From positions 1-64,000 of the forward strand of contig NZ_SMGG01000003.1 of assembly GCF_004339245.1 (NCBI RefSeq): a stretch of DNA of 64,000 bases, read 5' to 3'. The notes below the pieces were generated by a model that was not told the origin of the DNA, did no database searches, and was given only the letters and a program-made list of their open reading frames with translations. A program made the translations under genes and the position numbers. Shown in pieces: positions 1,684 through 50,189 of the stretch. The stretch is from Seleniivibrio woodruffii. Lineage in GTDB: Bacteria > Chrysiogenota > Deferribacteres > Deferribacterales > Geovibrionaceae. The first letter of the stretch is position 1. Every line of letters starts with the position of its first letter.

Positions 1684-1693
1684 TATTCACTCC

Positions 1694-2233
1694 TTATATA
1701 AACATACTGAGCGACATAGATATCTCGTCCATCTTGACCCTTGCTGCGTCCGTGTTGGAGTAGCTGCATGAGGGGACAACTATGCCGTAGAATTTGAAGC
1801 CGAATATATTGCAGAAGCCTTTCATCCAGTCCAGAGTGGGCTGACCGTGGCTTCTGTTGGGAGAGCCCTGAGTGAGGATGAAGAAGAATTTCTTCGTTCC
1901 CTCAAAGGTCGGGCGGCCGCTTTTGTTCAGCAGGACATGGAACCTGTCCAGAAACATCTTCGCCGTTCCGCTGATGAAGCTGAAATAGTTGGGAGATATG
2001 AATATGATAAGGTCGCTTTTAAGAAGGGTTTCGAAAGATTCTCTGAGTCCTTCCTCCACCATTTCGGGACGGAAAGCCGGAGCTTCCCTGAATTTATTCT
2101 CGTATTCGTGTTCAAATTTCAGAGAGGACAGCTCAATGAGCCTGCTTCCTTCATACTTTTTGAACAACGCATCCGCTATAAACGCAGAATTGCCGTCGGA
2201 TTTCACCGCAGCATTAAAAATAACAGTATTCAT
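1694..2233 (-). CDS. NAD(P)H-dependent FMN reductase-like flavoprotein
   Basis: A 179-aa flavodoxin-fold protein of the NADPH-dependent FMN reductase/iron-sulfur flavoprotein superfamily. It shows a typical FMN-binding sequence around 'SPNYFSFISGTAKMFLDR', equivalent to the 'P-Y..-SG-K-F-DR' signature, and a 'TQGSP' loop later on. The cysteine cluster of iron-sulfur flavoproteins is absent, so it probably holds FMN only. I place the start at 2233; a longer frame reaches 2281, but residue 17 of that frame begins the usual beta-strand (MNTVIFNAAV). It is followed closely by fba. The physiological electron acceptor cannot be read from the sequence. Confidence 0.72.
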   Translation of the reverse strand: MNTVIFNAAVKSDGNSAFIADALFKKYEGSRLIELSSLKFEHEYENKFREAPAFRPEMVEEGLRESFETLLKSDLIIFISPNYFSFISGTAKMFLDRFHVLLNKSGRPTFEGTKKFFFILTQGSPNRSHGQPTLDWMKGFCNIFGFKFYGIVVPSCSYSNTDAARVKMDEISMSLSMFI

Positions 2234-2287
2234 AACTTCACCCCGCTCTATTTTACCCGCAACAAAGTGCCGTTTCAACAAATAATA

Positions 2288-2315
2288 TTGACAACACGCT
2301 ATTTACATTCATAAT
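2288..2315 (+). promoter_or_regulatory. promoter giving a probably leaderless mRNA
   Basis: TTGACA (2288-2293), 16-nt spacer, then CATAAT (2310-2315). The expected transcription start, 6-7 nt after the -10, falls on the ATG at 2322, and no Shine-Dalgarno precedes that ATG. Confidence 0.55.
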
Positions 2316-2321
2316 CCGCTC

Positions 2322-4040: not shown

Positions 4041-4047
4041 ACAAAAA

Positions 4048-4076
4048 AGGCGGGGTTTTGCCCCGCCTCTCTTTTT
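4048..4076. terminator. intrinsic terminator
   Basis: Hairpin AGGCGGGG-TTTTG-CCCCGCCT (4048-4068) followed by CTCTTTTT. It terminates the gene ending at 4040. On the other strand it directly follows the stop of the Ala-rich reading frame and is preceded by an A-run, so it may work in both directions. Confidence 0.85.
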
Positions 4077-30007: not shown

Positions 30008-31338
30008 TAATCTCAGGATTGGACAACAGCCAGAACTACAGCTTTTTTAACATACAGCAGACGACATCTGAGAGAACGCCTGCAACACCGACCACAGACA
30101 AATATACCCCATCAATCACCAATACTTCAAACATCTACAACATGTTCGGCAACATACAGAAAAACATATTCGACTCCTTCGCAAGCGAAAGCAGTTTCAT
30201 GAATGCTGTCCGCGGTGTGTTCGATAACGTGGAAAACAAGGTGCTCACTTCTGATACATTAACTCAGGCTGCAAAAATTTCTGATGAATTCAGTAAGCAG
30301 GGCGAATGGCTCAGTATCAGTCATGACGGTACTCATGCCTCAATACGTGATGCAGAAATTGTTTACTATGAAGGTAATGAACAGAGTATATCGATTTCTC
30401 ACAGCAAAAATATTGTTCTAAATGTAACAAAAGGCAGCAGAGATATTGATATTTTCAGCAGTGATAATGTTATTTCCAGCACCGGAGACAATAGTGATCG
30501 CTTATCTGTGTCTGGATCAAAAAATGTGATCATCAACAGCGGTGGAAGCAACGATGGTATAGGGGTTTTGAATTCCAATAATGTTATCGCTAATGCAGGT
30601 AATGGGGATGATCGAATCTTTTTTGTGAAAACAAGTGACGCTGTAATCAACAGCGGAGCAGGTAATGATATTGAAACAATAAGCTCTTCAAGCGATGTTG
30701 TTTTAAACAGTGGAACAGGAAGCGACTATACAGAAATTCATGAGTCAAGCGGAGTCGTTGTAAACAGTGGCATGGGAGATGACTCAATAAGTATTCTCAA
30801 TTCAAACAAAATCGTATTGAATGGAGATCAGGGAAATGATGTCATAAATGTTGAACATTCTGCCAATGCAATCATAGATGGTGGAGATGGTGATGATATT
30901 ATAACCGTTAATGCCTCAACTAATACAATCGTAGACGGCGGGGCGGGAAATGACACTATCACAGCTTCCGGCATTATCTCCGGAGGCACAGGCGACGACT
31001 ATATAAAACTCTACCACTCAATTTTCGAGAAAGACGCAAAAGTTCAGGATGTCATCAAATACAGCAAAGGCGACGGAAACGACATAGTTGAAGGCGTAAC
31101 GGATGACACTGTGATTGACCTCAATGGTATATCAGTGGATGAATATGATATCACCGAATCACGAAACGAAGGCGGCACAAGAGTTAAAACCCTGACCATG
31201 AAAGACGGCAGCGGAAGCATCACTCTGGTTTACAATGGTCGTGCTGATAATGTTAAAAAACAGGATAATTCTGAACTATATGGTAATGCTCCTGAATACG
31301 CCCGTTTAAACGATGTCAGTGTCGGACAAGCAGACTAA
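30004..31338 (+). CDS. RTX-like repeat protein 2 (paralogue)
   Basis: 444 aa, start GTG overlapping the previous stop (GTGA), so it is translationally coupled. Its N-terminal ~60 residues are a close copy of protein 1 (MIISGLDNSQNYSFFNIQQT, then TSERTPAT..TDKYTPS). The repeats have decayed further: only a few canonical units remain (GNGDDRI, GGDGDDII, GGAGNDTIT, GGTGDDYIK) and the rest keep only the strand spacing. The shared 'TMKDGSGS(M/I)T' near the C-terminus shows the duplication covered the whole gene. No function can be assigned beyond a likely secreted beta-roll protein. Confidence 0.72.
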   Translation: MIISGLDNSQNYSFFNIQQTTSERTPATPTTDKYTPSITNTSNIYNMFGNIQKNIFDSFASESSFMNAVRGVFDNVENKVLTSDTLTQAAKISDEFSKQGEWLSISHDGTHASIRDAEIVYYEGNEQSISISHSKNIVLNVTKGSRDIDIFSSDNVISSTGDNSDRLSVSGSKNVIINSGGSNDGIGVLNSNNVIANAGNGDDRIFFVKTSDAVINSGAGNDIETISSSSDVVLNSGTGSDYTEIHESSGVVVNSGMGDDSISILNSNKIVLNGDQGNDVINVEHSANAIIDGGDGDDIITVNASTNTIVDGGAGNDTITASGIISGGTGDDYIKLYHSIFEKDAKVQDVIKYSKGDGNDIVEGVTDDTVIDLNGISVDEYDITESRNEGGTRVKTLTMKDGSGSITLVYNGRADNVKKQDNSELYGNAPEYARLNDVSVGQAD

Positions 31339-34835: not shown

Positions 34836-34876
34836 AACAAGAGAACTGGATTGTTTTTATACAACTGAATAGATTT

Positions 34877-34960
34877 GCCTGGGTGGCGGAACTGGTAGAC
34901 GCAAGGGATTTAAAATCCCTCGGTCGCAAGGCTGTACGGGTTCGATTCCCGTCCTAGGCA
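34877..34960 (+). tRNA. tRNA-Leu (TAA), integration site
   Basis: Cloverleaf of a class II tRNA: acceptor GCCTGGG/CCTAGGC, D-loop GGTAGAC, anticodon arm AGGGATTTAAAATCCCT with TAA, variable arm CGGTCGCAAGGCTG-type, T-arm CGGG-TTCGATT-CCCG, discriminator A. The acceptor contains one G-T wobble. The displaced copy at 50130-50188 has C instead, which would pair perfectly, so the current 3' half was delivered by the inserted element. Confidence 0.96.
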
Positions 34961-34961
34961 T
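34902..34961 (+). other. attL (tRNA-Leu 3' end)
   Basis: Starts with CAAGGGATTTAAAATCCCTC and runs to the tRNA end. Identical to 50130-50189 except T at 34955 versus C at 50183. Confidence 0.93.
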
Positions 34962-35105: not shown

Positions 35106-36944
35106 TTAGATGTTTTTAATATTCTTTCTAATACGACTTACCAGAATAGCTTCTTTTGATACAAAAGAGTTTGTAGCCTTAGCCCAATCCAATATACCAT
35201 TATCAATATTATCATTTTCTAATAACCTATTCGAGAACCAAGCAAAAATAGGTATTATAGTTGATTCTGGATTGTTTAAATTTACCAGTCCGCCAGCAAT
35301 CGTGAGCAACCCTAGAATATCCCATTGTTTTAACCGCTTTTTGTCTTTCTCAAATTTTGTCACTTCTTTGTTAATCTCATCAATATGGAATTGGACTTCA
35401 TTATAATTCACTGCTTTAATAATTTTAGAAACTCTATCAATATCTCTGTGTGAAAAACAACTGTCAACTTCTAATACTGGAGCATCATTATCAATACAAA
35501 ATAGACCATTGGTAAGTAACTGGAGATTTTTTATATTAACATTATTAGGTAAAACTTCTATTCCAGTGTAGCAACTTGCACAAAGTTGTGTTGCATCAAA
35601 CGAAGAATATCCTTCATCACATGCAGGAATGATTGTAGCCTTTAAGCCAATCGCAATATCAAGTGAAGCACACGCAAGAGCAAATTCATCGTTTCTATCA
35701 ATCCCATATGCCATATTGTAATAATAAGCTAATATTGAACCAAAATTATTCAACAATAACCCCATAGAGCCTCTCGTATTTATTACATATTCATAAAAAC
35801 TTAATTGTAACCCCATTACTTTTATCATTGATTGTAATAAAAGATTTGGAGATACATCATAAATTGATACTAATACTTCTAAGAGCTTCCGCCTTTCAAT
35901 TATGCCCATAGTCGGAAACATAAACGGCATCTTTTTTTTCATCTCATTTATGGTTATTGCAGCCAATCTTCTTGTAAAAATTAAAGATCTGGGTGATGCC
36001 TCCATTAATTGGAGAATAAATCCTTGATTATATCTTTCAATTGACTGAGGCAGTATAAATTGTACTCTTCCTCTTATAGTCAACTCAATAAGCTCTTTTT
36101 CATTAATATTTAAAGCTTTTACAAATCCACTCAGGTTCTCTGCCAGAGGCATCACAATTATTAGCCTTCTGTATAACGTGAGATATGTTCGCATATTATC
36201 AGGTGGCAAAAATGTTGCATCGATCAAACATGCAGACCCATCCATTGCATAGCTTTTATCGATAAAGGATTGCGGGTCATTTTTTGTAAAAACACTGTTT
36301 CTATTTTCAGCCCAAAAATCTTCATCTTGTTCATAATATTCTTTAATTAAACTATTGCACTGACATCCAAGTTCTCGACTTGTTTTCAGAATCATAGGGT
36401 TATCAATTTTATAAGTTTTTGTATTGGTATCATTTAAGGATGATGTAAAATTGTCTGTTTTAATAATAACATCAAGAGATTCGTTTATCATTTTACATGT
36501 TTCTTCAAGAACACAAGTCTCTTCTAGTGTTAAGGATTCTTTGAAAATAACAGAAAGTTTATGTCCATTTACCTCAAACTTAAATTCTGGAAACTTTTTT
36601 GGCAAATTAACTATAAGTTCTCTCATAAACTCATCTAATGTCAGAGGATCTCCTCTAAGGCAGGCTAAATCAGTAACGCTTCTCTCTTCAACCCTCAGAG
36701 AATCATCCGGTGCTTTTTGCACGATCGAGATTGGAGATGATGCCATTCGGCATTCATTATCAAACCATTCAGTTAGTTTTTTGTCATTTACATTGTATTC
36801 TTTTTCGTTGAGATAAGGGCATACTGCAAAATATTGATTATCTTTTACCCAAAGACCATTAAAAGGCACGTGTGGAGCTTGTAATATTAATCTTTCATAA
36901 GAAACTCTTGCATAGTATTTATCATGATTTATATCATTACTCAT
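35106..36944 (-). CDS. large protein of unknown function
   Basis: 612 aa from the ATG at 36944, which has GGAG 6 nt upstream. I do not recognise a domain. The N-terminal ~190 residues are mixed alpha/beta. The middle (~200-420) contains a 'YAMDGSACLIDATFLPP' segment and a long helical stretch. A cluster of cysteines lies near residues 440-470 (ACDEGYSSF..LCASCYTG). Near the C-terminus is a hydrophobic stretch (WDILGLLTIAGGLV), long enough for a membrane or buried helix. No signal peptide. It is the last gene of a leftward operon after the AlbA_2 gene (55-nt gap). The AT-rich composition matches the mobile element. A role with the NTase-hydrolase is inferred only from position. Confidence 0.6.
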   Translation of the reverse strand: MSNDINHDKYYARVSYERLILQAPHVPFNGLWVKDNQYFAVCPYLNEKEYNVNDKKLTEWFDNECRMASSPISIVQKAPDDSLRVEERSVTDLACLRGDPLTLDEFMRELIVNLPKKFPEFKFEVNGHKLSVIFKESLTLEETCVLEETCKMINESLDVIIKTDNFTSSLNDTNTKTYKIDNPMILKTSRELGCQCNSLIKEYYEQDEDFWAENRNSVFTKNDPQSFIDKSYAMDGSACLIDATFLPPDNMRTYLTLYRRLIIVMPLAENLSGFVKALNINEKELIELTIRGRVQFILPQSIERYNQGFILQLMEASPRSLIFTRRLAAITINEMKKKMPFMFPTMGIIERRKLLEVLVSIYDVSPNLLLQSMIKVMGLQLSFYEYVINTRGSMGLLLNNFGSILAYYYNMAYGIDRNDEFALACASLDIAIGLKATIIPACDEGYSSFDATQLCASCYTGIEVLPNNVNIKNLQLLTNGLFCIDNDAPVLEVDSCFSHRDIDRVSKIIKAVNYNEVQFHIDEINKEVTKFEKDKKRLKQWDILGLLTIAGGLVNLNNPESTIIPIFAWFSNRLLENDNIDNGILDWAKATNSFVSKEAILVSRIRKNIKNI

Positions 36945-36999
36945 GGTAAGCTCCAAATATCTTTGCCATATGCAATTTAGGATTAGACTTACAAAATTA

Positions 37000-38463
37000 C
37001 TAGTATCTATAAGTGGTTAATCGTTCCTTTCCTTTCTCTGTGGCACGATACTTCTGTTTACTACTTGTTGGCTTATCCGGTTCAGTCATTTCAAGTAGAC
37101 CTGCTGTAATAAGAGGCTTAAGCACTTGGTTCCTAAACTTAGTTCTGTCAGATCTACCTTCAATAGACATTAAATCTGATATACTACTTTCAGTTAAACA
37201 CATTTCTAATATTTTAACTTGGTGCCGACTTAGTGCCAGCTTAGTGCCTTGTCCGGCACTATCTCCAGAATCTTTGCCACCGCCAAACTCAGGCACTTTG
37301 ATAATTATCTTGAAAATATCTCCTTCTATAAGCTCAGGATTCTCACCGCCGTAAGCTTTGCCATATTTCATAAGGTTGCGAACACCGGAACCAAGCTCAT
37401 CAGCCAAACCAATCTGCCTGAAGAACCGTGCGATAACTGGATTTTTCGGATAAGGAGTAAAAGATGCAGGATTGATTATGCCCATTCCATGTGGTCTGTT
37501 GCTGTTCTCGGTGCGAACCAGCCCTTTCTCAATGATCAACTTTGCCGGAAACGCATTCATATATTCCCTGTGAATCAGAATGTTTGAAGCCACCTCTCGA
37601 AATATAGTATCCCTGAGACTGATGTTTGTTGTACCTTCGAGATAAAACGGATCGGGGAGATGCTTTGCGATAAAAGCCAGAATCCTGTCATAGCTTTCTA
37701 CAAGATTTACTTCAACAAGGTCTCTGTCATCGTATCTGTCTAAGTTTACTTTTCGGAGTATCAGGTCTGTGCGGTGATGCGGCACGGCAGACAAGACAGA
37801 AGCATGTTTTCCGAGCAATAATATCCCAGCAAGAGTCAGCCCGCTTTTTCCTGTCTCTCTGTCGATCTGGTATAACTGTGCACTTTGCAGAAGATCCATA
37901 TCGTCCATATCTTTCCAAGGATGATCACCTCTTCGGATAGTAGCTGTTTTACGGCATTTTGCCAGTAAGCTGAGTTCAATATCCTCAAGCCCCGTATATG
38001 GAAATATTTTGTTTTCGCTATAAGACGACTGCTTACGTTGATAAAGTCTGGAAACCATGTCAGTATTGTTTGTAATGTCCAGATCACCATCTTCGTTACG
38101 GTCAAATATTTTTGCTCCGCACCTGTGTACCTGAGAACTTTCCGGAACATATATGTGAAGTACAGTTTTGCCGTCAATTTCAACCGGATCAACCGAAAGG
38201 TATGTTGGAGGATTTATCTTCTGGGGATTATTAACTGTAGTAACAAAAGTTTCTTTGATTGCCTGGACACAATCCTTGTCAACGCCGACAATATTCTTAT
38301 TATCATCCACGCCAAGAAGTATCGTTCCACCATGGCGATTTAGAAAAGCACAGACTGTGTCATACACATCTTTGTTCAGACTTATTCTTGATTCTTTAAA
38401 CTCGACAGTCAAGCCTTCGCCATTCTCGACAAGGCTTTTAATTATACCGATGTCAGAAATCAT
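37000..38463 (-). CDS. AlbA_2 / HATPase_c_4 winged-helix protein
   Basis: 487 aa. The N-terminal AlbA_2 (Schlafen-core-type) domain spans ~10-130 with 'GEGLTVEFKES' and 'NRHGGTILLGVDDNKNIVG'. A HATPase_c_4-like module follows (~290-400), with 'REVASNILIHREYMN', 'GMGIINPASF' and 'LADELGSGVRNL'. The last ~80 residues form a winged helix. Such proteins are often annotated as RecG-like or RNA-binding regulators and recur near defence genes; biochemical roles are poorly known. ATG 38463 directly follows the upstream gene's stop (38464-38466) with no gap. Its codon use is more GC-rich than that of its neighbours, suggesting a separate origin. Confidence 0.8.
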   Translation of the reverse strand: MISDIGIIKSLVENGEGLTVEFKESRISLNKDVYDTVCAFLNRHGGTILLGVDDNKNIVGVDKDCVQAIKETFVTTVNNPQKINPPTYLSVDPVEIDGKTVLHIYVPESSQVHRCGAKIFDRNEDGDLDITNNTDMVSRLYQRKQSSYSENKIFPYTGLEDIELSLLAKCRKTATIRRGDHPWKDMDDMDLLQSAQLYQIDRETGKSGLTLAGILLLGKHASVLSAVPHHRTDLILRKVNLDRYDDRDLVEVNLVESYDRILAFIAKHLPDPFYLEGTTNISLRDTIFREVASNILIHREYMNAFPAKLIIEKGLVRTENSNRPHGMGIINPASFTPYPKNPVIARFFRQIGLADELGSGVRNLMKYGKAYGGENPELIEGDIFKIIIKVPEFGGGKDSGDSAGQGTKLALSRHQVKILEMCLTESSISDLMSIEGRSDRTKFRNQVLKPLITAGLLEMTEPDKPTSSKQKYRATEKGKERLTTYRY

Positions 38464-39624
38464 TTATATATCCTGTTTATTTCTTTTACGATTCTTAATG
38501 AATTCAGTATACCAAATATCTTTATTCAAATAAAGATACGGAAGCCAATATCCTTCTATGACATCTTTTTTGATCACATTGTTGTGTTTGAAAATATTAT
38601 TATCTGTTTCTAAAAGAATTTCTGACTTATGAATAAACCCATCAACGCCTGAAGTTCCAAAAAGCGCATCTTTTGTCAACCAATCAATTGTAGGCATCCA
38701 TTTAACATACTCATCCTTGGGAGATTTTTCATTTAAAACCCTTGCAACATGTGTACCTCGATAAATATTCCAATCAAAATTTGTCGTTATGATACTACCT
38801 GTTAATATTAAACAATTCAGTGACACTGGAGGAGTATCTTTAAAGCCACTAATATAAGCAGCAATAATATATGTACCAAATGAGTGAGCTATTATTGAAA
38901 TTGGTTTTTTATAGATTCCATTAAGAGCAAACAACCATTCCCGAAACTCATCAACCACTTTATCTCTTTTCTTTTTATTTCTGAGTAAATCAATACCATT
39001 ATCTTCAGTATAACTATATGGGGCAAAGATCCAATTTTTAGATGAAATAAGCGGCGCAAGATCATTATTCCATTTGGCATCAGTCATCAAACCATGAATA
39101 GTTACAATGACACCATTGGAATCATAATGATCTATAAAATGCCTACCTATATATGCCCGTTGAATAATCTCATATTCAATGTCAGAAGGATAATGCTTTA
39201 TTTCCCATGTTTTATTTGTTGAAGTAAGATTGACCTGTATAACACCAACTTTTTCACCAGAAGCTTTCGTCATAAATAAATGAAGAAAACTATCTATAAC
39301 ATTAGGGTATTTTATAGAACATACCTGTATATCAATCTTCATCGCATCTATTGTTAGCATTTCATTTCTACGAGGCAAATTTGTATCGTCACGAAAAACA
39401 ATTAAACAGTCAATATCATTTGGTTCATGAGCCTTCGTTACAAAAGAGCCGCCAAAAATAATAAATATGGCACCTGATTCTGTAGCCCAATCAAAAATAT
39501 CAGCGATCGACTTTCTAAAGCTTTCTCTGTAATCATTAAAACAAAAGAAATCAATAAACTCTAGTCCAGAGCATTCATGAATACCTTCTGGCAATAAATA
39601 ATTAGAATTAAAATTTGGAATCAT
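38464..39624 (-). CDS. nucleotidyltransferase - alpha/beta-hydrolase fusion
   Basis: 386 aa from the ATG at 39624; an open frame continues to 39678 from TTG. Residues ~1-130 are a polymerase-beta-type nucleotidyltransferase resembling DUF6932 proteins, beginning 'MIPNFNSNYLLPEGIHE'. The active site is intact: GGS (58-60), D70-X-D72 in 'PNDIDCLI', and a third Asp (~98) in 'MKIDIQV'. Residues ~165-386 are an alpha/beta hydrolase with the oxyanion HG (178-179) and nucleophile Ser248 in 'AHSFGTY'; a later Asp and His could finish the triad. No signal peptide. First gene of the three-gene operon. I know of no named system with this fusion; signalling-nucleotide synthesis coupled to lipase or esterase action is one speculation, protein modification another. 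Confidence 0.72.
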   Translation of the reverse strand: MIPNFNSNYLLPEGIHECSGLEFIDFFCFNDYRESFRKSIADIFDWATESGAIFIIFGGSFVTKAHEPNDIDCLIVFRDDTNLPRRNEMLTIDAMKIDIQVCSIKYPNVIDSFLHLFMTKASGEKVGVIQVNLTSTNKTWEIKHYPSDIEYEIIQRAYIGRHFIDHYDSNGVIVTIHGLMTDAKWNNDLAPLISSKNWIFAPYSYTEDNGIDLLRNKKKRDKVVDEFREWLFALNGIYKKPISIIAHSFGTYIIAAYISGFKDTPPVSLNCLILTGSIITTNFDWNIYRGTHVARVLNEKSPKDEYVKWMPTIDWLTKDALFGTSGVDGFIHKSEILLETDNNIFKHNNVIKKDVIEGYWLPYLYLNKDIWYTEFIKNRKRNKQDI

Positions 39625-39675: not shown

Positions 39676-39762
39676 CAATTTTCATATACACTCTTGCTAA
39701 GGCTCTCTGCCGATCTTTCTTGTATAATCTGCTTGTTATATTTGATTGTCATATGAAAATTG
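39676..39762. promoter_or_regulatory. 12-bp perfect inverted repeat upstream of the NTase-hydrolase gene
   Basis: CAATTTTCATAT (39676-39687) and ATATGAAAATTG (39751-39762), 63 nt apart, in a 269-nt gene-free stretch (39625-39893) that must also hold the operon promoter. Two operator half-sites or a long hairpin are both possible. I see nothing else there. Confidence 0.4.
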
Positions 39763-39893: not shown

Positions 39894-41015
39894 CTAAAAA
39901 ACAATGTTTAAAATATATCTAAAAATGCCAACTAAAAACAAAAGAACGACATAAGCTCCAATAGATTCTCTAAACTTTAAATTGAGAAGAAACTTTGTAG
40001 AAGCAACAGGATATATAACAAAATACGCTGTACTTAATACCATTATTGGAACTTTGAAGTGTCCGTTTGGTGATAACAGCTGATAAGAAATAAGTCCAAA
40101 TACAAATAAAACTATTGAATATGTATTTAAAAAAATAAAAAAAAGACCACCATAAGTGGCTCTTGAAAATTTATACATTTTATTAGCAATAACAAAGATT
40201 AATGTAGAAAGCATAATAGCTAATAACAGCGTCAAGATATTATTAATATCTACTAGCATATTTAAAGTATCTATCAAGCCATTAGTCATCAGTTGAAATT
40301 GTTCCTTTTTATCTTTTCCTGCACTTGCCAATAGTTCTTTTACATTATACGAAGACAATATCTTTTGGAATGCATTCTCAAATAATTTTTTAGCAGATAA
40401 ATAGCCTAGCAGATGGAAAGCCAAAGATGTTGAAACAAGCTCAATATTACTAAATCTACGGACGGTATGCTTAATTGGCAAAAATAAAATAAGAAGTAAG
40501 TTAATCCATTTATAAATATCAAAGATGTCTTGATAATCTAATACTACTGAAGACCTTGTCTTGTTTGATGCCTGTTTTTCTTGATGTCCTTTGTCTCTGA
40601 GAACCTCAACGATATTTGGAATTCTTCCAACCTTGACATAGAACCCTTCAATCGAAATTTTGAAGTTGTGGTTTCTGTTATAATTTACATCAAAATAGCT
40701 GATCATTCGTTCGTTTAATCCTTTAAAATAAGCAATTACAGCACTTCTTTTAGAAGGTACTTTTGTCTCATCTCGCTTGCAATCATCACCTGAATCTCTA
40801 TTAAAATATTTGAAAAATCTGTCATCACATCTCAGAACATTAGACTCATTAAGCATTTTTATAGTTTCCTTAACATAACAATGAGTCGTTGAGGCATTAC
40901 CAGTTTTATGTTCGCTTTCGTAGTATAAAAAACTATTCAGAAAGAGAATCGTTTCTTCTTTTTCCGTCTGAGAGTAATAAATTTCGTCAATATGCACAGA
41001 TTTTTTTTTCGCCAT
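39894..41015 (-). CDS. multi-pass membrane protein of unknown function
   Basis: 373 aa. The N-terminal ~165 residues are soluble and charged. About five or six transmembrane helices follow: ~170-186, ~198-215, ~260-280, ~292-315, ~325-345 and ~352-370. An A9 run encodes Lys3-5 (plus-strand T9 just before 41011), a possible slippage site. I do not recognise the family. It lies upstream of the NTase operon on the same strand (269-nt gap), divergent from the mobilisation genes. AT-rich. Confidence 0.55.
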   Translation of the reverse strand: MAKKKSVHIDEIYYSQTEKEETILFLNSFLYYESEHKTGNASTTHCYVKETIKMLNESNVLRCDDRFFKYFNRDSGDDCKRDETKVPSKRSAVIAYFKGLNERMISYFDVNYNRNHNFKISIEGFYVKVGRIPNIVEVLRDKGHQEKQASNKTRSSVVLDYQDIFDIYKWINLLLILFLPIKHTVRRFSNIELVSTSLAFHLLGYLSAKKLFENAFQKILSSYNVKELLASAGKDKKEQFQLMTNGLIDTLNMLVDINNILTLLLAIMLSTLIFVIANKMYKFSRATYGGLFFIFLNTYSIVLFVFGLISYQLLSPNGHFKVPIMVLSTAYFVIYPVASTKFLLNLKFRESIGAYVVLLFLVGIFRYILNIVF

Positions 41016-41137: not shown

Positions 41138-41320
41138 ATGGATAAACCTATGAATGTAGAGGAAGTGGCAATATACCTGCACAAAGCTGTTAGCACCATT
41201 TATCAAATGACACACAAAAAGCAAATTCCACATATCAAGGAAGGCGGCAACCTTTTATTTGACAGAGATGACATTAATAATTGGCTCGCAAGTAAAAAAG
41301 TACCTGTTAGGAAATGCTAA
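41138..41320 (+). CDS. small helix-turn-helix protein, excisionase-like
   Basis: 60 aa, nearly all one MerR/excisionase-type helix-turn-helix: 'MNVEEVAIYLHKAVSTIYQM' recognises DNA with 'IPHIKEGGNLLFDRDDINNWL' as the wing. Proteins of this kind act as recombination directionality factors or local regulators in mobile elements. AGGAGG lies 7 nt before the ATG. The stop overlaps the relaxase start, so the two are co-translated. Whether it controls excision or mobilisation genes cannot be told. Confidence 0.75.
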   Translation: MDKPMNVEEVAIYLHKAVSTIYQMTHKKQIPHIKEGGNLLFDRDDINNWLASKKVPVRKC

Positions 41321-43998
41321 TGAGCCTTGCTCGTTCTATATCAGCTTCAAACGCTGAAAAATACTATTATGAAAAAGACCCGCTCCTTAGTAAAGAACCT
41401 GAAGGCAACTCAAAATGGCAAGGACAAGGTGCTGAAAAGCTGGGGCTAAATGGACAAGTATCGAAAGATACCTTTGTAAAAATACTTGATGGTAGGCATC
41501 CAGAGACTGGTCAAAGGTTAGTTGCACTTGGAGTAAATGGTGAACACCGAGCTGGAATAGATTTTGTCTTCTCACCGCCTAAAAGCGTCTCTATATATGC
41601 ATTACATGGCGGACACGCTGAAATACTCAAAGCTCATCAAGAAGCTGTCAGAGACACGATAAAACATATTGAGACCATTGTTACCTCAAGAAGCACGGAG
41701 AATGGTCAAACAAAATATCAGAATACTAGCAATGTTGTAGCCGCGACATTTATGCATTCCACATCCAGAGCCAATGATCCGCAGCTACATACACACGCAA
41801 TAATTATGAACATGACAGAATCCAACGGAGAATGGAAAGCAGTCTCAAATGAATCCCTATTTATTTCTCAAAACATTATCAATCAGGTTTATCAGAACCA
41901 TTTGGCTCAAAATATTGTTGAGCTTGGATATAGTATAGACCGCAGAGGATCGTCATTTGAGATATCTGGCTTTAAACAGGAGTGGATTGATCAATTCTCT
42001 AAAAGGTCAGATGAGGTCACAAAATACCTGAATGAAAATATTGATAAACTACGTGAACAGTATCCTGAAGCCTCAGAGCAGAAGTTAAAAGACTTAGCTA
42101 TTTTGGCCAGCAGAGATGAAAAAGACAAATCCATTACCTCAGCAGAATTGAAAGACCTGTGGGAATCTCAGGTCAGCCGAGACAGCATAGAACAAGCCGT
42201 CTGTAATTCCATTGAGCAGCAACTTCAAAGCTACACATTAGAAAAGACAGCGGATCTTATTACAGAAAACCAGAACACTTTTACAAAAGAACTGTTCGCA
42301 GAAACATACCTCAAGCTAAATGTTGGCTCACGCACTATTGAAGATTTCAAAATAGAGCTCCAAAAGTCTCTTTCAAATGAACAAATTCAAAAAGTTGGAG
42401 AAGTCCCAACAAGAATAGGCGCTCGGACAATCAATTTACCGCAAGCGATCTACACAACAGCCAATGTAATAGAAACAGAAAAAGCGATTCTAAACACTAT
42501 TGAAAACCAGAAGAGTATCAAATCATATATGACGGCTGAACTGGTGAGCCAGTATCTTGAAAACACCTCATTGACTGCTGGACAACAACAACTTGTAGAG
42601 CATATTGCAACTACAGATAAACGATTCTCATTTATTCAAGGAGACGCAGGAACGGGCAAAACATATGCTCTGGATATGGTTGCGAGCATCTTGCAGCAAG
42701 AATCTGAAGTTAAGATTATCGGAGCCTCATTCACAGGGAAAGCCGCCGCAGAAATTGAGGAAAAAACTAGCGGTAATATTCAGGCTCATACACTCCATAG
42801 CCTTCTGAACAACTGGGATCAGCATATTAAACTTGATCAAGCATCACTTCTTATCGTTGATGAAGCTTCGATGATTTCATCTAAGCAATTCGCATCTATT
42901 ATTGCACATGCTCAACAAACTGACACCAGAGTCATATTTATAGGTGATACAAAACAGCTTCAGCCAATTCAGGCTGGGCAAATTTTCAAAGACGCTATCG
43001 ACAAATTCGGTGCAGACGTAGTTCTCTCTGAGAATTTACGTCAACAGACCTCACTTGCTCAAGAGATAGTCGGATCGGTTAAAGATTACCACCAGGGAAT
43101 AAATGATAATGGTGTACATCAAGCTTTTTCATCGTTATCTGCCAACGACAAAATTCATGAACAATCGGATTTCACCAGCAAAGCTATTAAAGACTATATT
43201 TCAAATATTCAGGCGAATAAGGATACCTTGCTTCTGACACATAAGAATGACCTTAAAGATACATTGAATATTAATATTAGAGATCGTCTATTAGATAGCA
43301 ACACTCACCGTTTTGAACTCACTGTCAGAGAACAGATAAATATTAGCCAAACCGATAAATTTAATTCACACAGCTATGAAGCTGGACAGAGCATATTTAT
43401 AACAGCAGCCATTGATAATTTTAAAGCTGGCTCAGAATGGCAGATTTCATCTATAGACCATGAAAACAACAGCCTTAATGTCATAAATCCCAAAGGCTAC
43501 ACTGAATCAATCGACCTATCGGAACACGGAAACCACATTTCAGCATTTACAGAGCAGACAAAAGAATTCGCCATAGGAGACAAAATAGTCTTCGAAAAGA
43601 ATGATTACCTTATTGATGTCAAAAATGGGCAGACAGGGCAAATAGAGAGCTATGAGAACGGTATTCTCTCAATCAACAAAGACAACGGCGATTCAGTTAA
43701 TTTCAAACCTGAAAACTATAATTACCTTGATTATGGGTACGCTCTGACAGTCCACAAAGCTCAGGGGCAGACATGCGACACTGTCCAGTATGTCACCGAA
43801 TCTAACGACAAAATGATTAATTCTGAAAGCTTCTACGTGGCAATGACCAGAGCCACAGATGACATAAACATATACACCGATGACGCTGACAAACTCGCAG
43901 ATCGGGCAAGCATTCATGAAAACGAAATATCGCTTCATGACATGCTTGAGAACACCAACACCCACGAAACAGAAATTGACAACCAGATAGAATTTTAA
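41320..43998 (+). CDS. MobF-family conjugative relaxase-helicase
   Basis: Nicks and unwinds the element's DNA at oriT for transfer. About 892 aa. The relaxase domain has an N-terminal Tyr cluster (EKYYYEKD) as catalytic residues and the metal-binding three-His cluster ('FMHSTSRANDPQLHTHAII'). The RecD-type helicase domain has Walker A 'GDAGTGKT' (~residue 445), Walker B 'LLIVDEASMIS', and the C-terminal 'VHKAQGQTCDTV' and 'FYVAMTRATDDINIY' motifs. TrwC and TraI are known relatives; this one is somewhat shorter than TrwC. I choose the ATG at 41320 (AGGA 7 nt upstream, TAATG overlap with the HTH gene); 41314 is a possible start two codons earlier. Confidence 0.92.
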   Translation: MSLARSISASNAEKYYYEKDPLLSKEPEGNSKWQGQGAEKLGLNGQVSKDTFVKILDGRHPETGQRLVALGVNGEHRAGIDFVFSPPKSVSIYALHGGHAEILKAHQEAVRDTIKHIETIVTSRSTENGQTKYQNTSNVVAATFMHSTSRANDPQLHTHAIIMNMTESNGEWKAVSNESLFISQNIINQVYQNHLAQNIVELGYSIDRRGSSFEISGFKQEWIDQFSKRSDEVTKYLNENIDKLREQYPEASEQKLKDLAILASRDEKDKSITSAELKDLWESQVSRDSIEQAVCNSIEQQLQSYTLEKTADLITENQNTFTKELFAETYLKLNVGSRTIEDFKIELQKSLSNEQIQKVGEVPTRIGARTINLPQAIYTTANVIETEKAILNTIENQKSIKSYMTAELVSQYLENTSLTAGQQQLVEHIATTDKRFSFIQGDAGTGKTYALDMVASILQQESEVKIIGASFTGKAAAEIEEKTSGNIQAHTLHSLLNNWDQHIKLDQASLLIVDEASMISSKQFASIIAHAQQTDTRVIFIGDTKQLQPIQAGQIFKDAIDKFGADVVLSENLRQQTSLAQEIVGSVKDYHQGINDNGVHQAFSSLSANDKIHEQSDFTSKAIKDYISNIQANKDTLLLTHKNDLKDTLNINIRDRLLDSNTHRFELTVREQINISQTDKFNSHSYEAGQSIFITAAIDNFKAGSEWQISSIDHENNSLNVINPKGYTESIDLSEHGNHISAFTEQTKEFAIGDKIVFEKNDYLIDVKNGQTGQIESYENGILSINKDNGDSVNFKPENYNYLDYGYALTVHKAQGQTCDTVQYVTESNDKMINSESFYVAMTRATDDINIYTDDADKLADRASIHENEISLHDMLENTNTHETEIDNQIEF

Positions 43999-44581: not shown

Positions 44582-46357
44582 ATGAGTGAAAATCATAATT
44601 ACACAGGCTTTGAAGCGTGGCTTCATAACCTTAAAATGTCAATGAGGATGATGTTATTCATCCTCGCTGCTCTTGCAATTGTGTATGTAGCAGTAGTGGT
44701 AACTTACGTCTACTTCTCGTATGACAAGGATCAGCTCTATTACATGTACAAGTGGCTATTGTCGGGCGCATTGGCAAAGACATTTCCGAATTTTACCATG
44801 CACCTGAACTATGACGGCAAGGTTATTGAAGTCGCAGCTCATAACCTGTTTTCAGTCTATTATGAGCAAGGCATGACAGATTTATTGGCTCTAAGGTCAG
44901 TAGCGATAAAATCATTGTTAGTATTTCTGCTGTTCTTTCCGTTGCATAAGTTCTTCAGCAACAAAGCTAAGAGCCAATCAAAGGATGAGTACGCCAGAGG
45001 ATCTCAACTAAGCACTCCAAAAGAGTTGAGAAAGCAGCTTAGAAAGGAACAACTGAGTTTACCGTTTGGAGAAGTCAAGATGCCTATCAAGGCAGAGGTG
45101 AAGCATTGCTTCATAGTAGGAGCAACAGGCAAAGGGAAAACTGTCCTGACAAGCTCATTTATCGAAGAACTCAGAAGAAGAGGAGAAAAGGCAATCATCT
45201 ATGATTTTAAAGGTGATTACGTCAGCAGATTCTTTGATCCTGAAAGAGATTTGCTATTTAACCCTCTGGATAGCAGATCTATCAACTGGGATATCTTTTC
45301 AGATATGAAAACGCCTATGGATATCATATCTATGACGGCCTCTCTGATTCCAGAGCAAGCCCATACATCACAGCCGTTTTTTAATTTGGCGGCAAGGGAT
45401 GTATTTACAGGTGTTGTAAGTCACCTATTCCAGACAAACCAGAAGAATTATTCCACTCTATGGAACACACTGACTAAGTCGCCTGAAGAATTAGCAGAAC
45501 TTCTTCGAAACACCAAAGGTGGCACAGCAGGAGCGGCACACATAGCAGACCCATCAAATAAACAGACAGGATCAGTTCTGTCAACAATGCACCTGTATTC
45601 TAAAATCTTTGAATATTTCAAAGATGATAACGACTCATTCAGCATTGAAGAATGGGTGAAAAACGGATCAGGAATATTGTTCATCTCCAATTATGATAAG
45701 CTAAAAGAGACTCTTAAGCCGATTCTGACAATGTTCATAGATACAGTTGCCAGAAACCTGATATCTATGCCTGACGATCCAAATAACAGGCTGTTCTTTA
45801 TTTTGGATGAGTTTGGAACTCTTCAGAAGATGCAGAGAATCGTTGAGCTTTTGACACTCTCCCGAAGTAAAGGAGGTGCAGTCTTTCTGGGTATTCAAGA
45901 TATCGGCCAGATAGATAATATCTACGGCAAAGACCTCAGAAACACTATTATCAATGCTTGCGGCACAAATGCTATATTCGGTGTAAATGACCCAGACACT
46001 GCCGACTTCTTAAGTCGCAAAATTGGCGATACTGAATATCACAAGGCTTTGAGCGGAATGACGTTCGGATCATCAGAAAGAAACTCTGTAAATATGCATA
46101 GGCAAAAAGTCAGAGAACCGCTGTTCATCTCATCGCAGATTATGCAGTTGCCTGATTTACAGTGCTATGTAAAATTCCCCAACTTTGCCGGCTGCATGAC
46201 AACCTTAAAGCCTAAAAGTTACTCGGTGAATCAGGAAGAGTTTAAAATGAGACCAGATCTATCACTGGACAATATCTTTTGGGAACGACAAAAGATCCTT
46301 GATGAGCTACAAATCATCAAAACTGATCAAAACTCTTCTAAATTAGAGAAGTTTTAA
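44582..46357 (+). CDS. type IV coupling protein (TraD/TrwB/VirD4 type)
   Basis: A membrane ATPase that brings the relaxase-DNA complex to a secretion channel. 591 aa. Two N-terminal transmembrane helices (~20-43 and ~108-122) enclose a periplasmic loop. The ATPase has Walker A 'GATGKGKT' (~180-187), 'YDFKGDYVSRFFDP' and Walker B 'LFFILDEFGTL' (~403). The all-alpha region and the 'IINACGTNAIFGVNDPDTA' segment fit TrwB/TraD. It follows the RHH gene by 10 nt and ends the mobilisation operon at a terminator. No pilus or channel genes follow, so the element must borrow a secretion system. Confidence 0.9.
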   Translation: MSENHNYTGFEAWLHNLKMSMRMMLFILAALAIVYVAVVVTYVYFSYDKDQLYYMYKWLLSGALAKTFPNFTMHLNYDGKVIEVAAHNLFSVYYEQGMTDLLALRSVAIKSLLVFLLFFPLHKFFSNKAKSQSKDEYARGSQLSTPKELRKQLRKEQLSLPFGEVKMPIKAEVKHCFIVGATGKGKTVLTSSFIEELRRRGEKAIIYDFKGDYVSRFFDPERDLLFNPLDSRSINWDIFSDMKTPMDIISMTASLIPEQAHTSQPFFNLAARDVFTGVVSHLFQTNQKNYSTLWNTLTKSPEELAELLRNTKGGTAGAAHIADPSNKQTGSVLSTMHLYSKIFEYFKDDNDSFSIEEWVKNGSGILFISNYDKLKETLKPILTMFIDTVARNLISMPDDPNNRLFFILDEFGTLQKMQRIVELLTLSRSKGGAVFLGIQDIGQIDNIYGKDLRNTIINACGTNAIFGVNDPDTADFLSRKIGDTEYHKALSGMTFGSSERNSVNMHRQKVREPLFISSQIMQLPDLQCYVKFPNFAGCMTTLKPKSYSVNQEEFKMRPDLSLDNIFWERQKILDELQIIKTDQNSSKLEKF

Positions 46358-46430: not shown

Positions 46431-47267
46431 TCACATCATATTGTTTGCATATTTAATATCAAGAAGATTTATTTTATCAATTTTATCTTTATGAATAACG
46501 ATACTGAGCTTTGCTGGATATTTAAATCTCATCTCACTAATTCGAAATGTCCATAGCATAATTTTGAGTAACTCCTCATCACTTATGGCCTTATGACCTT
46601 CAATACATGTGATACCAGAGCCAAAAATTGGAGTAGATACGCTTTTTTGAGCGTAAACATTATTAACATTATCCCAAAATGTAATTAAAAACTCCAAATA
46701 CTCAGGCATTGTAAGCCTTGCCTTATTTTTGTTATCAAATTTAGAAAATGCTGTTATCAAGTAGTCTTCATATACGCAAATTGTGCCTATTTGAAAACGA
46801 TCTTTTTTACCTCGAGATCTTGTTTGAATAGTTCCTAATATTTGATTATTCTGAAGGTTATATGTGTTGATATATTCATCAAATTCAGCGACAGAAACAT
46901 CCAGATATTGATTGATGAATATTCCGTTTAATGAATGAGCTGCTATTACTTGATCATCAACTTGGGTATCAAAATACTCATTGAATGCAATTGCTTTTAA
47001 TCCTTCTTGCTGGAAAAGATCACCCACCTTAATGATCACATCACTTCCTTCAATATTAATATCAATCTTATTTAAATTATTCGATTTAAACCAAATAATA
47101 AAATAAATCACTACTAATAGCACAAGAAAAATCCATCCATAAATAGTCTTATTATTAGCAGGGATATCAACAAAAAGAACAACCAACGACAGTATTGTAC
47201 TTATAACAGAAGTGGCCTTAAGAAAACTTCCAATAACCCTCTTATCGAAAAAACTTACTTTTGTCAT
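46431..47267 (-). CDS. two-TM macro-domain effector, type II Thoeris ThsA-like
   Basis: 278 aa. Two transmembrane helices at ~17-34 and ~42-60 form a hairpin, followed by a soluble domain (~66-255). 'IIKVGDLFQQEGLKAIAFNEYFDT', 'SLNGIFINQY', 'TMPEYLEFLITFWDNV' and 'STPIFGSGITCIEGHKAIS' match my knowledge of the macro domain in the membrane-bound ThsA group (former DUF6430); key glycine-rich loops are present. In this type of Thoeris, the TIR partner makes an ADP-ribose-derived signal upon phage infection, which the macro domain binds so that the effector damages the membrane. The gene is 28 nt downstream of the TIR gene on the same strand. Identification is by recall of the family, not by search. 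Confidence 0.8.
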   Translation of the reverse strand: MTKVSFFDKRVIGSFLKATSVISTILSLVVLFVDIPANNKTIYGWIFLVLLVVIYFIIWFKSNNLNKIDINIEGSDVIIKVGDLFQQEGLKAIAFNEYFDTQVDDQVIAAHSLNGIFINQYLDVSVAEFDEYINTYNLQNNQILGTIQTRSRGKKDRFQIGTICVYEDYLITAFSKFDNKNKARLTMPEYLEFLITFWDNVNNVYAQKSVSTPIFGSGITCIEGHKAISDEELLKIMLWTFRISEMRFKYPAKLSIVIHKDKIDKINLLDIKYANNMM

Positions 47268-47295: not shown

Positions 47296-47859
47296 TTAAG
47301 ATTTGTATATATAAATATCTGCATCTCTTTTTGTGGATAACATAAAGTTTGTATTATTTAATGCTCTCTCAATTATACTCTTTTCAAGATGAATATGGAG
47401 AGTAGGAACTTTACTCATAGAGTCTCTGAAGATAGGAAGCTTATCCCATAGACTTTTTACACTATCTTTCAGATACCCGTTTGTCAAAAGACTCTCTTTA
47501 GTTGCATACTCTGGATATATTACAATAACCGGTAGCTCTTGATTGTTAATTCCGTAGTCAATTTCTTCTCTCAGTGCCCTTGAATTTACGGTATTAGCAC
47601 TAAGGAAAAGCACTATATTTTTTGAGTTTCTCAGACGTTCTCTTAGCCTTGGTTTCAAAGTAGTTTCCCAATCGCTATCATCTCGGACGTTGTATGTCTT
47701 GTTATGTGAATCATTAAATGGAAATGAAGAATCCGTACTTTTCCAAGCTCTCAACAATTGATAATAAAGAAAGTCTTTTGTTGCATATGCTCCAAGTGTG
47801 CTTTCAACAAATGGTTCGGCGACGTAAAAAGCTGCGTAATTTCCATTTCTATAAGCCAT
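47296..47859 (-). CDS. TIR-domain protein, type II Thoeris ThsB-like
   Basis: 187 aa. Starts 'MAYRNGNYAAFYVAE', the usual opening of these TIR (DUF1863-type) proteins. It continues with 'YYQLLRAWKS', 'FNDSHNKTYNVRDDSDWET', 'RLRNSKNIVLFLSANT' and 'SRALREEIDYGI'. The Glu pair at 98-99 is at the position of the catalytic TIR Glu; 'ELPVIVIYPEY' is a core strand. ThsB proteins sense infection and convert NAD+ into a signal for ThsA. GAGG lies 7 nt before the ATG. It is the first gene of the pair with the macro-domain effector. The divergent 47953 gene is 93 nt away. Confidence 0.83.
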   Translation of the reverse strand: MAYRNGNYAAFYVAEPFVESTLGAYATKDFLYYQLLRAWKSTDSSFPFNDSHNKTYNVRDDSDWETTLKPRLRERLRNSKNIVLFLSANTVNSRALREEIDYGINNQELPVIVIYPEYATKESLLTNGYLKDSVKSLWDKLPIFRDSMSKVPTLHIHLEKSIIERALNNTNFMLSTKRDADIYIYKS

Positions 47860-47952
47860 GATTAATCCTCACAATTTAGAAAATATTCCAACATATCATC
47901 TTCACATCATGCTACAATAATTTCATAAAAGCTAATATAATTGAGGTATCAA

Positions 47953-48849
47953 ATGACAGAATTCTTCAGTGATCAAGAAAAAGGGAAAAAGGAACTTATT
48001 ACTGAGAATATATCTAATAACTTATACAACACATTGTTAGAGCTACACGAAAGTTACAAAAATAACCTTTCTTTTTCTTTTAGCATGCTATGCAGCGATG
48101 GAGATGGAGTGGTGTGCGGTTTCGATGAAAACAAATTTATAAGAAGGATCCAAAGCATAATACCAGACTTATCTTTTTCACTGATTAAAACAAATGCTTT
48201 TAATAAGCCAGAATCAGTAGACGAAAAACTCAATTATGCCATTATTGATTTTTTACAGTTCATTTATGATAACATTAAGGATTACGAAGTAATAAACTAT
48301 CACTATTATATGAAACACCATCATATCAAAGAAATTGTAACTGAAGATGCAAAAAATAAATTTAGAGAAGAAGTTAACCAACTTTTTGAAAGAAATGGCG
48401 TAGTTTTTTATCTTGATCAAAACGGCAGTATTAAAAGAAAACTACAAACAGGGATGCAAAATCTTATTAATAAGATTGATATATCAAAAACTGAAACCGA
48501 ACTTAAAAAACATTTACTTGAGGCATGCTCACAAATTATTAGCCCTAAAACTGATGATAGAAAATATGCTTTGCGAGACCTTTGGGATGCTTTTGAAAGA
48601 ATTAAAACAATTATAAATCCAAGTGATAAAAAGGATTCAGCAAATCAACTTGTAGATAGGATTGTTAAAATAGATAATCTTAATAAGTACATTATTGAAA
48701 ATGAGTTTAAGCAATTAACAGAGATTGGAAATCAATACCATATAAGGCATGCTGAATTAACTCAGATAGATGTTAATGACATACATACCATAGACTACTT
48801 ATTTTTCCGAATGATGGCATTGATCAATATTGCACTAAAGGTAATTTGA
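47953..48849 (+). CDS. unknown protein beside the Thoeris pair
   Basis: 298 aa from the ATG at 47953 (GAGG 6 nt upstream; the frame is open to 47941). No confident family. It is mainly helical with a 'SMLCSDGDGVVCGFDENKF' segment early on. The C-terminal ~50 residues (NQYHIRHAELTQ, then DYLFFRMMALINIALKVI) look like the HEPN-type helices found at the end of several abortive-infection-type proteins, but the RX4-6H RNase motif is not clear. AT-rich. Divergent from thsB, convergent with the integrase (24-nt gap). A defence role is suggested only by location. Confidence 0.55.
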   Translation: MTEFFSDQEKGKKELITENISNNLYNTLLELHESYKNNLSFSFSMLCSDGDGVVCGFDENKFIRRIQSIIPDLSFSLIKTNAFNKPESVDEKLNYAIIDFLQFIYDNIKDYEVINYHYYMKHHHIKEIVTEDAKNKFREEVNQLFERNGVVFYLDQNGSIKRKLQTGMQNLINKIDISKTETELKKHLLEACSQIISPKTDDRKYALRDLWDAFERIKTIINPSDKKDSANQLVDRIVKIDNLNKYIIENEFKQLTEIGNQYHIRHAELTQIDVNDIHTIDYLFFRMMALINIALKVI

Positions 48850-48873: not shown

Positions 48874-49950
48874 TTAAAGCTTTTCGACGGCATCACGAAG
48901 GTTTTTCTGATTGAGGTGGGCATAGCGTTTTGTAACTGTGATGTTGCTATGGCCAAGAAGCTCTGAGACGGTATAAAGACCGACTTCTTTTTGGACTAAA
49001 CGGCTGGCGAAAGTGTGTCTGAGATCATGAAAATTAAAATCGTTTATCTCTGCTCTTTTAATTGCATTTTCATATGCGCCACGAATGCTTTTATTTTTAA
49101 AAAGTTTCTCTTCGTCTCCAATACTGCCACATTGATTAAAATATTCCACCAGAACGTCATATAAGGCATCATTAATAGGGATAAATCTTTGCTTACCATT
49201 TTTTGTATTGTGCTGAGCAATGATTATAGATCTATTTATCAAACTCACATTTTTACCTTTCAGAGTAAGTACTTCTGAGAACCTCATTCCTGTTTTCAAC
49301 GCAACTTGGACAATGTAGTATAAATTTTTATTTCTGCTTCTCCTGCATTCCGTAAGCACTCTTTCGACCTCTTCATTTGTCAAATATCTTGTGCGCTCAT
49401 TAGAAACAGGCATCTGTTTTATATGTCTCATTGGGTTAATTACGATAATATTCAGCTCAATAGCATAGTTCATCATCCGCTTAACCGTGGCAATATACCT
49501 GTTAATAGTACTCTTGGAGATTTTACGTTCCAGTTGGAGATATTTAAGAAATTTATCAATATCATATTCAGTTACACTTTTAAGCAGGATATCCCCTAAT
49601 TGTTCTTTAATAACTTTAAAGCGGCTTTTTTCCGATTTAAACGCTTTATTTTTCAGCCTGTAGTGAGGTGTGAATTGATTATCAATAAAGTCACTGAAGA
49701 CTATATTTTTAAGTTCTTTATTGACTTGCCCAACCTTTCTGTCAATAAGATCGTTTTTCTTTTTTGTTTCGAGTTCTTTCGCAAATTTTAGGCTATGCCC
49801 TGCATGTTCCCAAACTTTTTTTCCATTAAACGTATAAACAATGTAGTAAAGCTTCTTTTTGTCCTTTTTCAGATCATTACCGCATTTACATGTGGAATTC
49901 TTCAAAGATACCTTTGCATGACACTGTGAACATTTAACCATAACAGCCAT
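48874..49950 (-). CDS. int: tyrosine recombinase/integrase of the element
   Basis: Catalyses site-specific integration into tRNA-Leu. 358 aa. An N-terminal zinc-ribbon-like segment (CSQC..CKC) is followed by arm-binding and SAM-like domains (~70-170). The catalytic domain has Arg in 'KTGMRFSEVLTL', 'HDLRHTFAS', the second His in 'LLGHSN', and the nucleophile Tyr in 'TKRYAHL'. I place the start at 49950, with GAGG 6 nt upstream; the frame continues to 50007. TTTCTAAC repeats just upstream of the start could let the integrase repress its own promoter. Confidence 0.93.
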   Translation of the reverse strand: MAVMVKCSQCHAKVSLKNSTCKCGNDLKKDKKKLYYIVYTFNGKKVWEHAGHSLKFAKELETKKKNDLIDRKVGQVNKELKNIVFSDFIDNQFTPHYRLKNKAFKSEKSRFKVIKEQLGDILLKSVTEYDIDKFLKYLQLERKISKSTINRYIATVKRMMNYAIELNIIVINPMRHIKQMPVSNERTRYLTNEEVERVLTECRRSRNKNLYYIVQVALKTGMRFSEVLTLKGKNVSLINRSIIIAQHNTKNGKQRFIPINDALYDVLVEYFNQCGSIGDEEKLFKNKSIRGAYENAIKRAEINDFNFHDLRHTFASRLVQKEVGLYTVSELLGHSNITVTKRYAHLNQKNLRDAVEKL

Positions 49951-49968
49951 ATTAAGCCTCTTTTGATG

Positions 49969-49995
49969 TCTAACTTTTCTAACTATTTTTCTAAC
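49969..49995. repeat. right arm-type integrase site candidates
   Basis: Three copies of TTTCTAAC spaced 12-14 nt or less: TCTAAC (49969-49974), TTTCTAAC (49976-49983) and TTTCTAAC (49988-49995). Counterparts lie at 34976-35039. Confidence 0.6.
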
Positions 49996-50129
49996 CAGAT
50001 ATAGCAAATTATGCCAAAATGGATAGAAAAGTCAATAAATTTTACGAAGCCATCCCAGAAGTAAACCACTGTTAATAAATAGAATATAAAAGAATAATAA
50101 TCCAGATAAAAACAAATCAAAATAATACA

Positions 50130-50189
50130 CAAGGGATTTAAAATCCCTCGGTCGCAAGGCTGTACGGGTTCGATTCCCGTCCCAGGCAT
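50130..50189 (+). other. attR, displaced 3' end of tRNA-Leu
   Basis: 60-bp copy of the tRNA-Leu 3' part (anticodon arm to discriminator) with CCCAGGC acceptor strand, which pairs perfectly with the GCCTGGG at 34877. It is therefore the original chromosomal 3' end. Confidence 0.93.

Follow-up and report, generated by a model that had tools for sequence, protein, structure and literature searches.

A DUF6932 nucleotidyltransferase joined to a lipase-like hydrolase in a mobile element of Seleniivibrio woodruffii, a candidate one-gene conflict system

What may be the function of a single gene that joins a minimal nucleotidyltransferase (hereafter abbreviated as NTase) to a serine hydrolase, and which of the two halves would control the other? 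The question is raised by a gene lying within a 64,000-nucleotide stretch of Seleniivibrio woodruffii DNA, the whole of which is called here the window. An initial annotation, based on the letters of the window, had proposed that the gene encodes both enzymes with intact catalytic sites and that it resides in a mobile element equipped with phage defence. We have followed up these proposals by analysing the gene, its surroundings in the window and its relatives in other bacteria.

The fusion gene and its two predicted active sites

The open reading frame of 38464-39624 encodes 386 residues on the minus strand (the initial annotation gave no strand), from the ATG at 39624 to the stop at 38464-38466, and the plus strand of the same interval is interrupted by many stops. 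An alternative TTG start at 39678 would give a reading of 404 residues; the alignments of homologues begin at the ATG. The layout consists of an N-terminal DUF6932 NTase followed by a C-terminal alpha/beta hydrolase in one chain and is common to many homologues from unrelated bacteria, which rules out a chance read-through. The features of the protein are as follows, with NTase motifs counted over 16 full-length fusions (the window protein among them) and hydrolase residues over 31 sequences comprising fusions and 18 hydrolases without NTase.

38464..39624, minus strand: DUF6932 NTase-alpha/beta hydrolase fusion, 386 aa (ORF, Pfam and structure model)
39229..39618, minus strand: DUF6932 / Pol-beta-type NTase domain, residues 3-132 (Pfam, 76.5 bits; same place in the genome search)
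39445..39453, minus strand: GGS motif G58-G59-S60, identical in 16/16 fusions
39409..39417, minus strand: D70-x-D72 (D70-I-D72), predicted metal-binding motif, kept in 15/16 and lost only in the TIR-bearing L018
39331..39333, minus strand: third acidic residue D98, 16/16 fusions
39124..39150, minus strand: low-confidence inter-domain linker, residues 159-167 (pLDDT <50)
38524..39123, minus strand: alpha/beta hydrolase domain, residues 168-367 (VIA-align Z ~16 to small lipases)
39091..39096, minus strand: HG oxyanion-hole motif H177-G178, 31/31 sequences
38881..38883, minus strand: predicted nucleophile S248 in AHSFGTY, 31/31
38713..38715, minus strand: predicted catalytic acid D304, 31/31
38584..38586, minus strand: predicted catalytic H347, 30/30 of the sequences with a letter there

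The N-terminal half matches PF22014 (DUF6932) with an E value of 3.6e-21, well above the Pfam cut-off (76.5 bits vs 27), and NTP_transf_2 below threshold. It presents the motif of the Pol-beta NTase superfamily, hG[GS]...D-h-D...D, which is kept in 15-16 of the 16 fusions. Of note, the copy on the Klebsiella plasmid pKPN-332 (L005:7992-9170) has a G-to-D change in the GGS of its NTase (VGDSYV) with respect to the copy of locus L003. When modelled alone (pLDDT 78.9), this half is only ~135-160 residues long, without a modelled C-terminal helical lobe, and its structural matches are nearly all NTases, namely CCA-adding enzyme, ANT(4'), AadA, MNT and poly(A) polymerase. The scores of these matches are weak (Foldseek E at best 0.11; VIA-align Z 5.7, rmsd 3.1, 98 residues aligned). 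The predicted identity of this half rests mainly on the Pfam match and the motif, the structural matches being coherent in kind and weak in score.

The C-terminal half has only sub-threshold matches in Pfam (Lipase_2, Hydrolase_4), and a search for solved structures by sequence gave no meaningful match for the protein. Its predicted fold closely fits small lipases, with a VIA-align Z of 16.2 to lipase 6nkc (rmsd 2.6, 167 residues aligned) and of 15.7 to LipA of B. subtilis (1isp). The proposed serine hydrolase, initially recognised by its HG oxyanion hole and S248 nucleophile, is confirmed by these comparisons and its triad is completed by D304 and H347; triad and HG are kept in all the fusions compared and in all 18 hydrolases without NTase. 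Y205 and Y252 are common to fused and unfused hydrolases, whereas Y257 is invariant in the fusions only (13/13 vs 0/18); all three are candidate acceptors of an NMP. The predicted folds are consistent with both enzymes, strongly for the hydrolase and by weak matches for the NTase, and the residues expected of each catalytic site (G58-G59-S60, D70, D72 and D98; S248, D304 and H347) are in place, in agreement with the initial annotation. The AlphaFold2 model of the whole protein has a mean pLDDT of 88.7 and a pTM of 0.61; the latter value indicates that the arrangement of the domains is poorly defined, so that access of the NTase to the hydrolase is a supposition, which counts against the reading preferred below.

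The mobile element and the neighbours of the gene

The gene lies in an element of ~15.3 kb that is inserted in tRNA-Leu(taa) and also carries a Thoeris system; the recognisable features of the element are listed here.

34876..34961, plus strand: tRNA-Leu(taa), insertion site and left end
35106..36956, minus strand: 616-aa protein, no match in Pfam or PADLOC
37000..38463, minus strand: Schlafen AlbA_2 / HATPase_c_4 / Fic-like_C protein (Pfam)
41314..43998, plus strand: TrwC-type relaxase (Pfam 7.5e-79)
44582..46357, plus strand: TrwB-type coupling protein (Pfam 1.6e-102)
46431..47267, minus strand: Thoeris ThsA with Macro domain (PADLOC 1.2e-119)
47296..47859, minus strand: Thoeris ThsB, TIR (PADLOC 1.6e-75)
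47941..48849, plus strand: PDC-S32, candidate phage defence gene (PADLOC 5.5e-74)
48874..50007, minus strand: tyrosine recombinase / integrase, read from sequence, beside the attachment repeat
50127..50188, plus strand: direct repeat of the 3' part of tRNA-Leu, ~62 nt and 97% identical, right end

The tRNA-Leu ends, integrase, relaxase and Thoeris genes bear out the earlier view of a mobile element with phage defence, which is predicted to be mobilisable from its relaxase and coupling protein. In a relative of the same genus (G009) the end of tRNA-Leu recurs twice, at distances of 16-27 kb from the tRNA, and the latter thus looks like a hotspot of insertion. Outside the element, at 28490-31338 of the plus strand, are two long genes, adjacent and related, whose repeats are rich in glycine and aspartate (RTX-like by eye) and whose N-termini are nearly identical.

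The stop of the fusion gene directly abuts the ATG of the Schlafen-type gene (37000..38463), from which it follows that the two are probably co-transcribed in the window. The suggestion that the fusion co-occurs with this gene and with that of 35106-36956 did not hold, since neither is present at any of 18 other loci, and we have rejected a joint function on this basis. The two genes are possibly a separate system. The 373-residue protein encoded upstream on the same strand (39894-41015, minus) has no Pfam match and shows hydrophobic stretches in its C-terminal half; as a partner it was rejected too, for it is not conserved beside the fusion elsewhere. Indeed, no immediate neighbour is common to the loci outside Enterobacterales among the 18 compared, and the fusion therefore seems to act alone, most simply as a one-gene unit.

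The family, its spread and its company

Full-length homologues of the fusion were recovered from six named phyla, with 34-48% identity to the window protein, which answers the initial call for a search in other genomes. They are found on plasmids of Aliarcobacter, Klebsiella and Pantoea and in genomes of Niastella and other Bacteroidota, Chlorobaculum, Arcobacter, Paenibacillus, Geomonas, Natronobacillus, Pseudogemmobacter and Sphingomonas. A single-sequence search of the genome contigs retrieved nothing, whereas an alignment-based scan of the same set found homologues. One viral contig (L060) carries a homologue of the fusion; none was found in phage records, no unfused NTase was confirmed in viral contigs, and E. 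coli gave only 54-bp matches. Broken copies also occur: the gene of Rahnella (L016:9989-13139) is interrupted by an IstA/IstB-type insertion and that of Rossellomorea (L020:10001-11154) is split into two frames. Such broken copies are a common sight in costly genes.

In the tree of the NTase half, the fusions form one clade with support of 97/88 against 40 unfused DUF6932 rows; an unfused Exiguobacterium protein adjoins this clade and the Aliarcobacter plasmid copy is nested within a Bacteroidota group. This topology, a single fused clade with the nested Aliarcobacter copy, is explained if the halves were joined once and the gene was then passed on horizontally. The distances of the two halves are correlated, with a Mantel r of 0.76 (0/5000 permutations as high). 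By all these comparisons of sequences the family is real, fused once and spread horizontally; the six phyla, the plasmids and the presence of the fusion in 1 of 12 genomes of the window's family speak for such a spread. The family is also rare. The DUF6932 domain was found in 1 of 51 genomes of the window's phylum, namely that of the window itself, which is at odds with homologues being only housekeeping genes. A sample of the class to which the Paenibacillus genome belongs gave DUF6932 above the cut-off in 22 of 399 genomes, and a like sample for the Bacteroidia genome gave 16 of 395; in each sample only the centre genome had a frame of the fused length (~400 aa), the others measuring ~100-275 aa.

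Most DUF6932 proteins are unfused. Immediately after the unfused gene, and frequently overlapping it, the Bacilli sample shows the gene of a small Xre-type HTH protein (a cluster in 14 loci) or that of a PDC-M63B protein (6 loci); by their layout these two-gene operons resemble a toxin-antitoxin pattern. PDC-M63AB, when tried in E. coli NILS69, conferred no defence that could be measured (PMC12409345), which counts against the reading preferred below. No mention of DUF6932 was found in our literature search.

The hydrolase subfamily, for its part, follows a receiver domain in L006 and L057, precedes TPRs in L031, ends a protein of 1379 residues with a HEAT-like region in L022 and is joined to further N-terminal parts elsewhere. 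In the case of L006, a plasmid of Enterobacter hormaechei (1555-6729), the receiver-hydrolase protein is encoded third in an operon that matches PDC-M60, a candidate defence system of PADLOC; another locus with this subfamily, L008, lies near a SAVED-domain gene. Across these architectures the hydrolase is reused as an interchangeable module, as one would expect of an effector. Alpha/beta hydrolases have been predicted to be membrane-lipid-attacking effectors in bacterial conflict systems (PMC7159879, PMC8195603).

The Natronobacillus relative (L018:9521-11032) has three domains in the order TIR (E 2.8e-15), NTase and hydrolase. The DxD of its NTase has become N-V-T and its hydrolase triad is intact; to judge from these residues it has probably lost the catalysis of the former and kept that of the latter. 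This combination suggests a fixed output in the hydrolase and a changeable control in the nucleotide part, even if L018 is the single case of a dead NTase and sits on a long branch, which weighs on the other side.

The link to defence islands, as anticipated, is seen in several lineages, on the basis of listed cases and not of statistics. Gabija and Olokun flank the fusion in Klebsiella, with the same clusters in Rahnella; a TIR-PNTD protein and a short pAgo are directly upstream in Flavobacteriales; PD-T7-1 is 16 bp downstream in Pseudogemmobacter; and an LmuA-like gene is near the Rossellomorea copy. With the window, PADLOC matches place defence neighbours in four unrelated contexts (Thoeris, Gabija/Olokun, TIR-PNTD/pAgo and PD-T7-1), the association being a listing of cases. 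Against this stand at least half of the loci, which showed no PADLOC match nearby among the proteins tried.

Control, output and likeness to known systems

We prefer a reading in which the hydrolase is the output and the NTase the control, because the conservation of the active sites, the operons of unfused relatives, the reuse of the hydrolase and the defence surroundings fit it. The fusion would be a self-contained, horizontally transferred conflict protein with output and control in one chain, most likely anti-phage and of the abortive-infection type, a proposal that we advance tentatively. Once released, the small lipase-like hydrolase (S248/D304/H347) would cut an ester or thioester, perhaps in a membrane lipid or an acylated protein. 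The minimal NTase, with NTP and metal at D70/D72/D98, would most likely restrain it: NMP could be transferred onto the hydrolase or a bound cofactor, or a nucleotide product could be made that stays bound. The restraint would end upon infection or when nucleotide levels fall. Restraint is preferred by analogy with MntA acting on HepT. The defence function, the role of the hydrolase and the direction of control are those that we infer from these comparisons. A bolder version, which we regard as speculative and rather unlikely, is a one-protein immune switch that keeps its own lipase inactive by nucleotidylation or by a held product, with sensing, control and killing in one chain; a swap of control, as in the relative that gained a TIR and lost NTase catalysis, would then yield new one-gene systems.

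The opposite direction of control is unlikely but survives best among the alternatives. Infection would switch the NTase on, and its nucleotide signal or modification would turn the fused hydrolase on, a CBASS logic in one chain; a fused pair that makes and acts on a signal, as initially suggested, is a possibility. Both sites are intact and co-inherited, one relative bears at its N-terminus a TIR, another maker of nucleotide signals, and defence genes are nearby, all of which would suit activation. The NTase half is however minimal and without the modelled helical lobe, as described above, PADLOC has no CD-NTase match for it, and no nucleotide-binding domain is recognised in the hydrolase half. 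The same considerations bear on the initial proposal of a synthase and effector of immune systems: the pairing of NTase and hydrolase stands, and its CBASS-like implication does not sit well with the shortness of DUF6932 and its toxin-antitoxin-like unfused relatives.

A further alternative, to which we give a small chance, would make the NTase the toxic part, acting for example on tRNA by nucleotide transfer in the manner of MenT; the hydrolase would then regulate it, serve as its antidote or contribute a second toxic activity. Toxins are known among MenT-type NTases (PMC10435456, PMC11541572), and the unfused DUF6932 gene often has an HTH protein as its partner, an arrangement that also occurs with NTase toxins; yet L018 lost the DxD of the NTase and kept the hydrolase triad, and the hydrolase occurs without NTase next to other regulatory domains. 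Locations on plasmids and on an integrated element, together with the toxin-antitoxin-like operons of unfused relatives, would be consistent with a single-chain addiction gene that stabilises the mobile element, phage defence being a side effect. This seems improbable, since the two parts of one chain would be equally stable, whereas classical addiction needs a toxin and an antitoxin that differ in stability, and the gene also resides on large genome contigs beside defence genes. Least probable is a bifunctional modifying enzyme carried as cargo, for instance an antibiotic-inactivating adenylyltransferase with an esterase: although by VIA the NTase half best matches the aminoglycoside adenylyltransferases AadA and ANT(4') and some Klebsiella plasmids carry the gene, these matches are on a par with those to MNT, poly(A) polymerase and others (Z 5.1-5.7), the gene lies beside different defence systems in unrelated bacteria, and its hydrolase family recurs as a module of an operon with a candidate defence function.

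If the preferred reading of a restrained hydrolase is true, the fusion would unite a modifier (or synthase) and its effector in the single chain of a compact immune protein, and the uncharacterised DUF6932 family would gain a place in bacterial conflict. The question would then become whether the NTase turns its own effector on or off, with the TIR-bearing relative as a natural swap of control domain.

Among known systems, the PADLOC candidate PDC-M63 is close through its M63A, a DUF6932-type NTase, which the window protein matches with an E value of 1.8e-5 and unfused relatives with values up to 2.8e-31. Its partner is M63B and it has no hydrolase; PADLOC found no M63B match among the window neighbours searched, and the idea that M63B could be a diverged hydrolase was rejected on an hhalign probability of 0.3%. 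HEPN-MNT (HepT/MntA) shares the minimal NTase with G-S-x(n)-D-x-D and the possible control of a toxin by NMP transfer, and the low-scoring fold comparisons of the NTase half include HEPN-MNT structures. MntA polyadenylylates HepT via a GSX10DXD motif (PMC7641770), the spacing being GSX9DXD in the fusion. However, HEPN-MNT has two genes and a HEPN RNase toxin whereas the fusion has a serine hydrolase in the same chain, and Pfam gave no HEPN match in the protein or in the neighbours searched. The PDC-M60-like operon of Enterobacter ends its third gene with the same hydrolase subfamily (26% identity); its control part is a receiver domain, accompanied by a 1191-residue protein and a second receiver, with no NTase.

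CBASS with lipase-like effectors follows a comparable logic of NTase and effector. It uses separate genes, a larger CD-NTase and a diffusible cyclic nucleotide, whereas the fusion is one chain with no conserved partner. Hailong has an NTase that controls its effector, in two genes of which one encodes a membrane effector, and its HalB NTase (9dbj) turns up with a weak score in the Foldseek comparison of the NTase half. In VMAP, GAP1 and EAD/Death-like conflict systems the alpha/beta hydrolase is a variable effector fused to regulatory domains or beside them (PMC7159879, PMC8195603); the accessible parts of these two papers mention no DUF6932 fusion. A literature search, with subscription papers and preprints outside its scope, found no description of the fusion, in keeping with the earlier remark that no such layout had been described. 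Taken together, these comparisons point to a real and conserved protein, undescribed in the searchable literature, in which known parts are joined in a new arrangement with a probable function in immunity.
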